Of a stretch of 64,000 nucleotides of DNA, positions 17,956 to 23,063 are shown piece by piece (within the stretch, counting starts at the first letter, position 1; the number at the start of each line of letters is the position of its first letter). This DNA is from Elusimicrobiota bacterium (GTDB lineage Bacteria; Elusimicrobiota; Elusimicrobia; UBA1565; UBA9628): positions 62,001 to 126,000 of the forward strand of contig JACPFR010000021.1 in NCBI GenBank assembly GCA_016182905.1, written 5' to 3'. Made by a program: the position numbers and the translations under genes. A model generated the notes under the pieces. The model did no database searches. It was not told where the DNA came from and worked only from the letters and a program-made list of their open reading frames with translations.

Positions 17956-18824
17956 AGAAGACGAAGAACTCCGCGAAAGTCGGCGTCATCGGGGGCAGCG
18001 GCCTCTACTCCTCCGACGCCATCAAGAGCCCGCGGGAGCTGCGCCTCAAGACCCCTTTCGGCGCCCACTCCGGACCCATCACCCTGGGCGACCTCGACGG
18101 CATACCCTGCGCCTTCCTCCCCCGCCACGGCAAGGGCCACGTCGTCACCCCGACCGAGATCAACCAGCGCGCCAACATGTGGGCGCTGAAATCCCTCGGC
18201 GTCGAGCGCGTGCTCGCGTTCAGCGCGGTCGGCTCGCTCAAGGAAGAGCTTCCGCCCCGCACCTTCGTGTTCCCCGACCAGCTGGTGGACCGGACCAAGG
18301 ACCGGGTCCAGACGTTCTTCGGCAACGGATTGGTCGCCCACATCGCGCTGAACCCGCCCTTCGCGCCCGAGCAGAACCGCATCGTCTTCGACTGCGCCAA
18401 GGAGCTCGGCATCAAGTCCGTGCTCGGCGGCACCTACTGCTGCATGGAGGGCCCGGCGTTCTCCACGAAGGCCGAGAGCGAGATGCACCGCTCCTTCGGC
18501 TGGTCCCTCATCGGGATGACCGCCGCCACCGAGGCCAAGCTCGCGCGCGAGGCCGAGCTCGTCTACTCTCAGGTCGCGATGGTCACCGATTACGACTGCT
18601 GGAAGGAGGGCGAGGAGGTCCACACCGAGATGGTCGTGGCCAACCTCCACGCGAACTCGGCCAACGCCCAGAAGCTGATGCGCCTGGCCGTGCCCCGCAT
18701 CGCCGCGGCTCCGCTCGAGCCCGCTTTCTCGCAGGCGCTGAAGGGGGCGCTGTTCACCGCCCCCGAGGCGCGGAACAAGGCCACCCTCAAGAAGCTCGAC
18801 CTCCTGGTCAGGAAGTACCTCTGA
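17952..18824 (+). CDS. mtnP: S-methyl-5'-thioadenosine phosphorylase
   Basis: 290 aa. Purine-nucleoside-phosphorylase family 2 enzyme that splits methylthioadenosine to adenine and methylthioribose-1-phosphate in methionine salvage and polyamine metabolism. VGVIGGSGLYSS, FLPRHGKGHVVTPTEINQRA, CMEGPAFSTKAE and VTDYDCW are present. The final motif, with Asp-Tyr-Asp, favours adenine-type substrates over guanosine. GTG 17952 is chosen because GGGAGG lies 8 nt upstream and the codon overlaps the previous stop. It is followed directly by cdd. Confidence 0.9.
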   Translation: MKKTKNSAKVGVIGGSGLYSSDAIKSPRELRLKTPFGAHSGPITLGDLDGIPCAFLPRHGKGHVVTPTEINQRANMWALKSLGVERVLAFSAVGSLKEELPPRTFVFPDQLVDRTKDRVQTFFGNGLVAHIALNPPFAPEQNRIVFDCAKELGIKSVLGGTYCCMEGPAFSTKAESEMHRSFGWSLIGMTAATEAKLAREAELVYSQVAMVTDYDCWKEGEEVHTEMVVANLHANSANAQKLMRLAVPRIAAAPLEPAFSQALKGALFTAPEARNKATLKKLDLLVRKYL

Positions 18825-19306
18825 TGGCGAAGAACCCGAAGCGCTCCGTCGAACGCCTCATCGAGACGGCCGTGCAGGCGCAGAAGCGCGCCTACTGCCC
18901 CTACTCGCGCTATCCCGTCGGCGCCGCCGTCATGACCGCCGGCGGCCGGGTGTTCCCCGGCTGCAACGTCGAGAACGCGAGCTACGGCCTGGCCATGTGC
19001 GCCGAGCGCGCCGCGATCTACCACGCGGTGGCGAGTGGCTTCGACTCCATCGTCGCCGTGGCCGTCGTCGGCGCCGCCGCCAAGCCCTGCGGCGCCTGCC
19101 GCCAGGTCATGCACGAGTTCAGCGACAAGGACACCGCGATCCACCTCGTCGACCTGAACCCCACCACCGGCCGCCGCAAGATCGTCAAGACGACCGTCTA
19201 CAAGCTGCTGCCGCTCGCCTTCGACCCGCTCGCCTCGGGGCTGCTGCCCAAGAATCCGCGCAACCTGCTGCGGCGCAAGACGGCGAAGACCAAGAAAAGG
19301 AAATAA
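18824..19306 (+). CDS. cdd: Cytidine deaminase
   Basis: 160 aa, small zinc cytidine deaminase. The first zinc ligand and catalytic Glu are in CAERAAIYHA and the two other Cys ligands in PCGACRQ; YCPYSRYPVGAAV is the substrate-binding start. It converts (deoxy)cytidine to (deoxy)uridine in pyrimidine salvage. The C-terminus carries an extra, strongly basic tail (RRKTAKTKKRK) that is not part of the family fold. The start shares one base with the mtnP stop. Confidence 0.94.
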   Translation: MAKNPKRSVERLIETAVQAQKRAYCPYSRYPVGAAVMTAGGRVFPGCNVENASYGLAMCAERAAIYHAVASGFDSIVAVAVVGAAAKPCGACRQVMHEFSDKDTAIHLVDLNPTTGRRKIVKTTVYKLLPLAFDPLASGLLPKNPRNLLRRKTAKTKKRK

Positions 19307-19308
19307 CC

Positions 19309-19704
19309 ATGGACGCCTCTCCTATAAAAGTAATTGCTGACTGGATGAAGACCGCCGACCTCGCCGAGGTCGTCTACCGCAAGAACGGGACGGGCTTCTC
19401 CCTGACCGCCCTCGGCGCGGGCGATCATCCGGCCATCGCCGCCCCCGCGATGCCCGCCGGCCGCTTCGTCTCCGTCGCGAGCGACGGCGTCGGCGTCTTC
19501 CAGTGGAACGAGCCGGGCAAGGCGCGCAAGACCGAGGAAGGGTCCGAGGTCGCCGCCGGCGACGCCGTCGGCGTGATCGTGACCGGCTCCGGCGCGTTCA
19601 AGCCCGTCGTCTCCACGCACGCCGGCCGCGTGGCCAAGATCTTCATCGACGCGGGCCAGGCCGTGGAGTACGGCCAGCCGCTGCTCCTCCTCGAGATCCG
19701 CTAG
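19309..19704 (+). CDS. Biotin carboxyl carrier-like protein lacking the biotinyl lysine
   Basis: 131 aa, laid out like bacterial AccB: an N-terminal segment, a variable linker and a C-terminal biotinyl/lipoyl-type domain. In the C-terminal part, GSEVAAGDAVGVIV aligns with the strand before the biotinylation hairpin and HAGRVAKIFIDAGQAVEYGQ with the strand after it. Where AccB has EAMKM, this protein has TGSGA, so there is no lysine to biotinylate. It has an AAGGA ribosome-binding site 7 nt upstream and lies two genes before accC. It may be a regulatory subunit like the plant BADC proteins, or a carrier fold used otherwise. Confidence 0.75.
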   Translation: MDASPIKVIADWMKTADLAEVVYRKNGTGFSLTALGAGDHPAIAAPAMPAGRFVSVASDGVGVFQWNEPGKARKTEEGSEVAAGDAVGVIVTGSGAFKPVVSTHAGRVAKIFIDAGQAVEYGQPLLLLEIR

Positions 19705-21102
19705 ATGCCGCAAGCCGCGATCTTGTGCGCTCAGTGCGGGGCCGCCTCGGCGGCCCCGCACTCGCAGTGTGCCAAGTGCGGCGGCAAGAACGTGCGCGTC
19801 TGCGGAGGCTGCGGCCTCCAGAACTCGCTCACCAAGAACTACTGCGACAAGTGCGGCAACCCGATCTCGGAGCTCGGTCCGGCCGTGGCACCCCCGCCCC
19901 CGACGGCCGTTCCGGGCGCGCCGAAGAGCGACATCCCGGCGACGGTCGTCAAGCACATCGTCCCGAAGGACGCGCCCCCCAAGGAGGCCCCCAAGGGGCC
20001 CGCCAAGAAGGAGCCTCCGCCCGCGGCGCTCCCCCCCGCCAAGACGAAGGCGGTCGAGCCCGGCGCCCCGAACGCCGCCCCGGCGAACGCGCCGCTGCCC
20101 GTCGCCGGCCGCAAGGTCGCCGACCCCTTCGCCGCGAACGAGGTCTCCAACGATCCCTGGGCCCCCGTCGCCCCGCCGCAGCCGGAGTTCATCCCCGGCC
20201 CGCCGCGCTGGATCGGGACGCTGCGCCGCGTCGTCACCACGACCTTCGCCACCTTCGCCGTCGTCGCCGCGCTCGTCGCCGTCTGGTACTGGACCGAGAA
20301 CAACAAGCCCGAGAACGCCTCGCGCCGGGCCGCCATCCAATACCTCGACGTCCTGAAGGCGAAGGACTACCCCGCGGCGTATTCCATGTTCTCGGACTCC
20401 GCCCGCAAATACTGCACGCTCGAGGAGTTCATCGCCTCCCGCGACACCTCGACCTGGACCTGGTCCAACCTGCGCATCGACCACATCGAGCCGGGCGCCG
20501 TGCTCTACGCCTACGAGCTCGAGGTCGCGGGCGCGCCCCCGCGCACCGACCGCGTCCTGTTCTTCGAGGAGAACAAGAGGTGGGTGCGCCCCTACAGCTG
20601 GGTGCTGATGCAGAAGGTCGAGGAGGCCTTCGAGAAGAACAACGCGGACCTGAGCCTCGTGCTCGCCCAGGCCGCGGCGACGGTCAATCCCCGCGACCCG
20701 ATGGCCCGCGGCTACCTCTGCGAGGCCGCCTACTACCGCAAGGCGCCGGCGGACACCGAGCGTCAGTGCCTGACGGCCATCGAGCTCTCCCACGTGTATC
20801 CCTCGAACCTCTCGCTGAAGAGCCTCTACCACCTGCACGCGATCCTCGCCGACACCTACAAGAACGCGCTCCATAAGCCGGACCTCGCCCTCGACCAGTT
20901 CGCGCAGATGCTGGCGTTCCCCAGCATCTCGCCCGCCGACCAGTGCGAGATCCTGCTCGCGCGCTCCGAGGCATACATCACTCTCAGCCGGCCCGGCGAG
21001 GCCCTGGCCGACGCCAACCGCGCCGCCCAGCTCTGCGTGCGTCCCCAGGACCTCGCCTACATCGAGGACATCCGCCGCAAGCTCAACGCGCCCAGTCAAT
21101 GA
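19705..21102 (+). CDS. Zinc-ribbon, membrane-anchored, helical-repeat protein
   Basis: 465 aa of unknown function. Residues 1-52 hold paired zinc-ribbon motifs (CAQCG, CAKCGG, CGGCG, CDKCG). A Pro/Ala/Lys-rich linker (about 58-165) leads to a transmembrane helix (about 177-194, FATFAVVAALVAVWYW). The part beyond contains an NTF2-like domain (AIQYLDVLKAKDYPAAYSMF onward) and C-terminal TPR-like helices. Presumably the zinc ribbons are cytoplasmic and the repeats external. The gene starts immediately after the previous stop (no gap) and precedes accC by 10 nt. Nothing shows a direct role in fatty-acid synthesis. Confidence 0.7.
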   Translation: MPQAAILCAQCGAASAAPHSQCAKCGGKNVRVCGGCGLQNSLTKNYCDKCGNPISELGPAVAPPPPTAVPGAPKSDIPATVVKHIVPKDAPPKEAPKGPAKKEPPPAALPPAKTKAVEPGAPNAAPANAPLPVAGRKVADPFAANEVSNDPWAPVAPPQPEFIPGPPRWIGTLRRVVTTTFATFAVVAALVAVWYWTENNKPENASRRAAIQYLDVLKAKDYPAAYSMFSDSARKYCTLEEFIASRDTSTWTWSNLRIDHIEPGAVLYAYELEVAGAPPRTDRVLFFEENKRWVRPYSWVLMQKVEEAFEKNNADLSLVLAQAAATVNPRDPMARGYLCEAAYYRKAPADTERQCLTAIELSHVYPSNLSLKSLYHLHAILADTYKNALHKPDLALDQFAQMLAFPSISPADQCEILLARSEAYITLSRPGEALADANRAAQLCVRPQDLAYIEDIRRKLNAPSQ

Positions 21103-21112
21103 GGAAGACGAC

Positions 21113-22474
21113 ATGTTCAAGAAGATCCTGATCGCCAACCGCTCCGAGATCGCCGTGCGCGTGATCCGCGCCGCGCGAGAGCTCGGGGTCAAGACCGTCG
21201 CCGTCTATTCCGAGGCCGACCGCGAGTCGCGCCACATCGCGATGGCCGACGAGGCCGTCTGCATCGGGCCCGGCCCCTCGAAGCTCTCCTACCTCGACCA
21301 GGAGGCCGTGCTGTCGGCGGCCAAGAACACCGGCGCCGACGCCATTCATCCGGGGTACGGATTCCTTTCTGAAAACGCCGACTTCTCCGAGCTGTGCGCC
21401 AAGCGCGGCATCACCTTCATCGGTCCGCCGCCCTCCGCGAGCCGCAAGCTCGGCTTCAAGAGCGCGGGCAAGGCCGTCGCGGCCCTGGCCAACGTCCCGG
21501 TCGTGCCCGGCACCGAGGGCGACATCACCACCGACGTCTCCAAGGAAGTAGAGGCGATCGGCTACCCCGTCCTCATCAAGGCGTCCGCCGGCGGCGGCGG
21601 CAAGGGGATGCGCATCGTCCGCTCCGCCGCCGAGCTCAAGCCCCAGCTCGAGGCGGCCGCGACCGAGGCCAAGGCGGCCTTCGGCGACGGCTCGGTGTTC
21701 ATCGAGAAGCTGCTGGAGCGCCCTCGACACGTCGAGATACAGATCATCGCGGACAACCACGGCAACGTGGTGGCCTTCCCCGAGCGCGACTGCACCGTCC
21801 AGCGCCGCCACCAGAAGCTCGTCGAGGAATCCCCCTCCCCCGCGCTGACGCCGGCCGTCCGCAAGGACATGCAGGCGGCGGCCATCCGCCTCGCCAAGGC
21901 CGCGGGCTACCAGAACGTCGGCACCGTCGAGTTCCTCTTCCAGGACGGCAAGTTCTACTTCATCGAGGTCAACGCGCGCCTGCAGGTCGAGCACCCGGTG
22001 ACCGAGGCCGTCGCGGGCGTCGACCTGATGGAGCTGATGATCCGCGTCGCCGCCGGCGAGAAGCTCCCCTTCGGCCAGGAGCGCGCCAGCGAGATCCGCT
22101 GCCACGCCATCGAGCACCGCATCAACGCCGAGGATCCCGACAACAACTTCATGCCCTGCCCGGGGAAGATCGAGAGCATCGAATTTCCAGGCGGCGCCGG
22201 GGTACGGGTCGACACTTACGTCTACGCCGGCTACACGATCCCGAGCTACTACGACAGCATGATCGCCAAACTCATCATCTCGGCGGGCGACCGGCCCGCC
22301 GCGCTGAGGCGCTCCCTGCGGGCGCTCGGCGAGCTCAAGATCACCGGCGTCAAGACGACCGCCGGCATGCACGCGAAGGTCGTCGCCCATCCCGTGTTCA
22401 TGAGCGGCGACTTCGACACGCACTTCATCGACAAGACCGGCCTGCTCGACACAAAGGAGCCCGCCCATGTCTGA
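21113..22474 (+). CDS. accC: Biotin carboxylase subunit of acetyl-CoA carboxylase
   Basis: 453 aa. ATP-grasp enzyme that carboxylates the biotin of the carrier protein. FKKILIANRSEIAVRVIRAA, HPGYGFLSENADF, KASAGGGGKGMRIV and the active-site FIEVNARLQVEHPVTE are all present, as is the C-terminal biotin-carboxylase domain. There is no fused BCCP, so it needs a separate carrier, and the nearby BCCP-like protein lacks the biotin lysine. The family could also serve another acyl-CoA carboxylase. Its 3' end overlaps gmhA by 8 nt. Confidence 0.95.
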   Translation: MFKKILIANRSEIAVRVIRAARELGVKTVAVYSEADRESRHIAMADEAVCIGPGPSKLSYLDQEAVLSAAKNTGADAIHPGYGFLSENADFSELCAKRGITFIGPPPSASRKLGFKSAGKAVAALANVPVVPGTEGDITTDVSKEVEAIGYPVLIKASAGGGGKGMRIVRSAAELKPQLEAAATEAKAAFGDGSVFIEKLLERPRHVEIQIIADNHGNVVAFPERDCTVQRRHQKLVEESPSPALTPAVRKDMQAAAIRLAKAAGYQNVGTVEFLFQDGKFYFIEVNARLQVEHPVTEAVAGVDLMELMIRVAAGEKLPFGQERASEIRCHAIEHRINAEDPDNNFMPCPGKIESIEFPGGAGVRVDTYVYAGYTIPSYYDSMIAKLIISAGDRPAALRRSLRALGELKITGVKTTAGMHAKVVAHPVFMSGDFDTHFIDKTGLLDTKEPAHV

Positions 22475-23063
22475 GTTCAAGAAGACCATCGAGTCTCAGC
22501 TCAAGGACTCCGCCAAGGTCCTGACAGCGACGAGCAAGCTTTCACCCATCATCAATGCAGCCGCCGAAGATCTTCTCCGCGCCTACCGGAACGGCGGCAA
22601 GCTGCTCTCCTTCGGCAACGGCGGCTCCTCGTGCGACGCCATCAATTTCGCCGACGAGCTCACCGGGCGCTACCGGCGCAACCGCCCGGGCCTGCCCGCG
22701 GTCGCCCTCTCGGCCAACACGAGCGACCTGACCTCGATCGCCAACGACTTCGGCTTCGAATACGTCTTCGAGCGGCCTCTGCGCGCGCTCGGCCGCCCCG
22801 GAGACGTCGCCGTCGCGATCTCGACGTCGGGCAACTCCAAGAACGTGCTGAAGGCCGCCGCCGCCGCGCGCGAGCTCGGAATGACGGTCATCGGCCTCAC
22901 CGGCCGCTCCGGCGGCAAGCTCAAGGACCTGTGCGACCACTGCGTGCGCGTGCCGTCCGACTCGACGGCTCGCATCCAGGAGGCGCACATCACGGTCATC
23001 CAGATCTGGTGCGGGATCCTCGAGGACGAGCTGTTCCCGAACGCTCCCCTCGCCCACGGCTGA
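22467..23063 (+). CDS. gmhA: Phosphoheptose isomerase
   Basis: 198 aa SIS-fold enzyme converting sedoheptulose-7-phosphate to D-glycero-D-manno-heptose-7-phosphate, the first step of LPS inner-core heptose synthesis. LLSFGNGGSSCDAINFADEL, the Ser-rich loop AISTSGNSKNVL and the C-terminal QEAHITVIQIWCGILE are typical of GmhA. It overlaps accC by 8 nt and shares a base with the next gene, the heptose-1-phosphate adenylyltransferase. This pair is the best evidence in the window for an LPS-bearing outer membrane. Confidence 0.93.
   Translation: MSEFKKTIESQLKDSAKVLTATSKLSPIINAAAEDLLRAYRNGGKLLSFGNGGSSCDAINFADELTGRYRRNRPGLPAVALSANTSDLTSIANDFGFEYVFERPLRALGRPGDVAVAISTSGNSKNVLKAAAAARELGMTVIGLTGRSGGKLKDLCDHCVRVPSDSTARIQEAHITVIQIWCGILEDELFPNAPLAHG

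Follow-up and report, generated by a model that had tools for sequence, protein, structure and literature searches.

The closest described systems are the plant BADC proteins (Arabidopsis BADC1-3), which are BCCP paralogs lacking the motif with the biotinylated lysine; they occur alongside intact BCCP and are tied to heteromeric acetyl-CoA carboxylase (ACC) and its BC subunit (PMC11926652). BADC has been described as unique to plant ACC and helps to assemble BC-BCCP; its role is disputed between inhibition, in which BADC replaces BCCP, and an assembly glue that caps BC-BCCP (PMC11926652). No bacterial precedent for BADC was found in the literature searched. Regarding the contacts between BC and BCCP in bacteria, investigations on BC1 of Chloroflexus aurantiacus revealed a barrel of four BCCP N-terminal hairpins that ties BC dimers into a tetramer, which is needed for full BC activity; deletion of the hairpin lowers this activity, and deletion of the core leaves the tetramer intact (PMC11077971). 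The AccE/epsilon "glue" subunits are small accessory subunits proposed to assemble carboxylases with a fused carboxyltransferase (PMC11926652, PMC3199775). AccE is described as having a helix structure (PMC3199775).

The window analyzed here is a stretch of 64,000 nucleotides from a contig of an Elusimicrobiota bacterium. It carries a BCCP paralog without the biotinylation lysine (19309..19704, + strand; 131 aa), designated b, which was characterized by its ORF, Pfam, PDB and fold matches, and homologs. The ORF begins with ATG, and a Shine-Dalgarno-like AAAGGAAA lies upstream. The protein matches Pfam Biotin_lipoyl with an E-value of 1.1e-6, which passes the curated cut-off, and NCBIfam BCCP with an E-value of 4e-7, which is yet far under the equivalog cut-off. 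The best PDB match of the family profile is E. coli BCCP (4hr7, E 1.6e-13). The AlphaFold2 model has a mean pLDDT of 80 (about 90-96 in the C-terminal domain), and its best PDB matches in Foldseek are 1bdo and 4hr7, with a target TM of 0.87-0.91 and an rmsd of 1.1-1.3. The Pfam, PDB profile and fold matches together rule out chance similarity.

The homology to BCCP covers the whole length of the protein, namely the N-terminal helix and hairpin, the thumb and the biotinyl fold. The N-terminal module (19318..19413, +) consists of a helix (residues 4-13) and a beta-hairpin (residues 18-35), modeled by AlphaFold2 with modest confidence of only about 61-68, and its segment MDASPIKVIADWMKTADLAEVVYRKNGTGFSLTA aligns with the N-terminus of E. 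coli AccB. The PDB match to 4hr7 independently gives the same register as these alignments with the E. coli sequence. The alignment also places FQWNEPGKARKTE (residues 64-76; 19498..19536, +) as the counterpart of the E. coli BCCP thumb, with FQWNEPGKARK as the thumb-like stretch. The C-terminal biotinyl-type beta-barrel domain (residues 53-131; 19465..19701, +), delimited by pLDDT and the Foldseek matches to 1bdo and 4hr7, has the fold and thumb characteristic of AccB/BCCP.

At the hairpin tip, TGSGA (residues 92-96; 19582..19596, +) stands where the biotinylation motif AMKM would be. The tip E-A-M-K-M of BCCP is aligned with V-T-G-S-(G)-A, and lysine is absent. Compared with AccB, the hairpin has one extra residue, and the exact tip column is ambiguous by one, either way without lysine. 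The nearest lysine, K98, is located four residues further and is not conserved. Thus VTGSGA holds neither the biotinylated lysine of the (A/V)MKM tip of AccB/BCCP nor the lipoylated lysine (DKA-type) of lipoyl domains and GcvH; the best fold and sequence matches are BCCP, and the GcvH gene is located elsewhere. The original prediction of a biotinyl-type domain with a lysine-less TGSGA tip is therefore confirmed by the alignment, the PDB profile match and the AlphaFold2/Foldseek results. As it would have been undone by a sequencing error hiding AMKM, independent assemblies of the same genus were inspected; these also lack the lysine, and with many independent assemblies showing the same loss, sequencing error is ruled out as its cause.

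Comparison of b with bacterial AccB/BCCP (E. coli 1bdo and 4hr7) shows the same fold, thumb, N-terminal segment and accB-accC gene order. In contrast to AccB, b has neither the biotinylation lysine nor the flanking Met, and it has a short linker (131 aa versus about 155-175). The conserved upstream operon neighbor is a cytidine deaminase gene (18824..19306, +), which ends 2 bp before b. An intervening gene (19705..21102, +) follows without spacing and encodes an N-terminal double zinc ribbon (sub-threshold), a likely membrane segment and a TPR-like C-terminus (ZnTPR gene); both genes were assigned from profile matches and neighborhood comparison. After 10 bp comes accC (21113..22474, +; profile matches), the sole biotin carboxylase found in the genome. 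The last 8 bp of accC are shared with the next gene of the conserved cluster (22467..23063, +), which was labeled by inspection as a SIS sugar-phosphate isomerase. Exactly one ORF thus separates b from accC, in agreement with the predicted position two genes upstream.

The order glyA, MTA phosphorylase-like, cytidine deaminase, BCCP paralog, (ZnTPR), accC, SIS recurs in relatives. The ZnTPR gene, with its zinc ribbon, probable membrane anchor and TPR-like part, is found between b and accC in many relatives, not all. Wherever the contig extends far enough, accC lies on the same strand, directly downstream of b or past one ZnTPR gene. It was within the fetched stretch for 140 of the 149 distinct b sequences, and where it was unseen, the contig or the fetched stretch had usually ended. 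In G054 (81% complete), no AccC was found anywhere in the genome. The linkage to accC could be partly inherited operon order. An apparent AccC fusion in G051 (L317, 1230-2921 of contig C39) was ruled out as an artefact: an assembly-gap N run spans the biotinyl domain, so that the reading frame stays open from the BCCP N-terminus into accC. In the complete-chromosome MAG G011 (CP096137; L067, L114), accC and accB each look split across frames, probably owing to indel errors.

The true AccB was predicted to be encoded elsewhere, and a canonical 172-aa AccB with IEAMKVFNEI is indeed present in a single copy on contig C57 of the source genome, which is 97% complete. A second biotin carboxylase, as a possible partner of this AccB, was sought in the genome, and none was found besides the window accC; nearly all of the 53 b-positive genomes likewise have one AccC each. 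The biotin/lipoate ligase family is represented by one protein in the source genome. Contigs C36, C40 and C15 encode three carboxyltransferases of the fused type, each about 500 aa long, and a search for AccA/AccD in this genome found them absent, the ACCA model matching the fused proteins only. A 2011 survey including a single Elusimicrobia genome listed ACC(BC) and did not list ACC CT-alpha and CT-beta (PMC3199775). In G034 (92% complete), AccB, b and any carboxyltransferase are all missing together, as expected if b serves ACC.

b is present in 53 of 58 relatives. Its profile finds matches in 290 of 295 Elusimicrobiota genomes, and many of these matches outside the window clade are motif-intact BCCPs. 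Phylogenetic analysis indicated two BCCP paralogs in the phylum, AccB and the accC-linked b, each forming a single clade (SH-aLRT 82 and 92, respectively). The stand-alone AccB has EAMK in all 68 copies read (48/48 and 20/20). In b, the MK motif is lost in 124 of the 149 distinct sequences: the tip column is without K in 101, has K without a preceding Met in 16, and reads MR, MQ or MN in seven. The 25 sequences keeping MK include one Burkholderiales AccB picked up by the scan (L292). Eroded b proteins form one large clade that contains the window (SH-aLRT 100). Separate K-to-R changes occurred in families f15, f16, f17 and f18 and a K-to-Q change in f9, with at least six state changes overall, so b gave up a carrier function more than once. 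As to whether the loss is conserved across the phylum, it holds for a large Elusimicrobiota clade and is not phylum-wide, the outgroups having AMK or only K-to-R or K-to-Q. An apparent stop inside the AccB of G216 is located upstream of the ORF.

Loss of the motif coincides with a change of the carboxyltransferase. Only fused carboxyltransferases were found in all 24 genomes with eroded b, and AccA and/or AccD halves in all 30 genomes with a b tip of the AMK, AMR or AMQ type, in two of them beside a fused type. Across all 54 genomes compared, erosion of the motif and the switch from AccA/AccD to a fused acyl-CoA-type carboxyltransferase go together. This suggests that the carrier motif of b was freed when AccA/AccD disappeared. 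As the AccC tree also groups the eroded lineages together, including the long-branched f5, erosion and AccA/AccD loss probably go back to a single evolutionary event, and their association does not count as independent support. Most outgroup families sampled keep AccA/AccD, and the window clade has the fused enzymes instead. Halves and a fused carboxyltransferase occur together in two genomes (G090 and G211). AMR-bearing accC-linked BCCPs (L163, L165, L173, L177 and L182, in G164, G088, G059, G060 and G065, respectively) are found where AccA/AccD are still there, possibly an early stage of the same loss.

The pairwise dN/dS of b within the genus is 0.09-0.33, indicative of purifying selection. 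In the eroded clade, sampled by 43 representatives, the information content at the positions matching E. coli A120-M124 drops to 0.5-1.4 bits, versus 3.2-5.4 in AccB, and the tip column is unconstrained, with G, K, A, S, R, P and others all occurring. In the same representatives, W12, D17, E20, G89, G133 and Y148 are still highly conserved; conservation in the clade is near its highest at W12, T16, D17, L18 and E20, and the barrel glycines and the YGQPLFF strand are also strongly conserved. An uninformative tip together with a conserved N-terminal module and scaffold is a signature of selection on the fold and N-terminal contacts, for which, rather than for the tip, b would be kept.

Based on these results, b is very probably a former BCCP that turned into a non-carrier subunit associated with AccC. 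The constant linkage to accC, the conserved N-terminal module, the unconserved tip and the retention in genomes of 1.2-1.5 Mb lean to a structural subunit, and an assembly scaffold is somewhat the likelier role compared with an inhibitor. The N-terminal helix-hairpin of b, like the BCCP-type hairpin at BC in Chloroflexus BC1 (PMC11077971), would still bind AccC, and its hairpin may pair with those of AccB. b would thereby join AccC dimers into a larger assembly, with carrying left to AccB. As AccA/AccD are absent, the carboxyl group would then pass to the fused acyl-CoA-type carboxyltransferase. In contrast to b, the Chloroflexus hairpin is fused to BC and is followed by a functional biotinylated core. 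A small accessory subunit with such a role would resemble AccE, from which b differs as far as the published description of AccE goes.

An inhibitor or tuner, first proposed for plant BADC (the inhibitory model is cited in PMC11926652), would be a dummy carrier that stands in for AccB, on AccC or within the holoenzyme, and reduces malonyl-CoA output. The same fold, the retained thumb, the absent lysine and the operon shared with accC are consistent with such a role; however, conservation is lowest in the hairpin that would have to reach into the active sites, and the gene is fixed beside accC, without any hint that it is regulated on its own, and persists in reduced genomes, which makes inhibition less likely. 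The conservation pattern somewhat favors the glue model over the inhibitory one. It is improbable that b remains a carrier with the modification on a different residue, such as a nearby lysine, or with another group attached: the proteins with K in the tip column without Met, such as EVGKD and ETAKG, could be read in this way, but tip lysines are missing from the window protein and its genus, K98 lies four residues away and is unconserved, and the tip column is free to vary. Because those 16 or so proteins, which come from other genera, have a lysine in the tip column, one can be sure that modification is absent only in lysine-free members such as that of the window. Decay of a redundant accB, held only by its operon position, would fit the functional AccB elsewhere and erosion where AccA/AccD were lost; at the low dN/dS, with no frame breaks in the aligned members and with N-terminal and scaffold residues conserved over a deep clade, b can hardly be such a relic. 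A role of AccC-bound b outside ACC, such as that of a sensor or a scaffold for its zinc-ribbon/TPR neighbor, would account for the interposed ZnTPR gene but is very improbable given the many relatives in which b directly abuts accC. As a whole, a non-carrier subunit of the AccC complex, a scaffold sooner than an inhibitor, is on balance the best explanation of the sequence data.

The proposal of a bacterial BADC counterpart holds for a lysine-less, accC-linked BCCP with AccB elsewhere, clade-wide; counterpart here refers to the architecture, the loss and the expected partner. As in plants, the genome encodes both a canonical BCCP and a BCCP homolog without the biotinylation motif, and AccC is the expected partner. 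Unlike plant BADC, b is bacterial, lies beside accC, has a partner carboxyltransferase of the fused acyl-CoA type instead of AccA/AccD and is known from sequence. The proposed phylogeny against AccB placed b as one clade in an Elusimicrobiota tree without plant sequences, and as far as this tree shows, b would have arisen within the accC-linked paralog of Elusimicrobiota. The likeness to plant BADC is probably convergence, and the BADC analogy is apt in the sense of "works like". b is apparently an independently evolved variant of the non-biotinylated BCCP relatives. Quite possibly, though short of probably, the clade independently evolved a BADC-like non-carrier BCCP as an obligatory ACC subunit that was fixed when the fused carboxyltransferase replaced AccA/AccD.

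A bacterial case separate from plants makes the question of inhibitor versus glue testable in simple recombinant systems, and several stages of the loss (AMK kept, AMR/AMQ, motif eroded) are still visible in Elusimicrobiota. Adjacency to accC does not guarantee that an accB-like gene encodes the carrier, and selection can maintain the BCCP fold for a purpose other than carrying CO2. If true, the clade would have an ACC of new composition, consisting of AccC, AccB, a dummy BCCP and an acyl-CoA-type carboxyltransferase, and across the clade, one subunit in the first step of fatty acid synthesis is probably maintained for structure or control alone.
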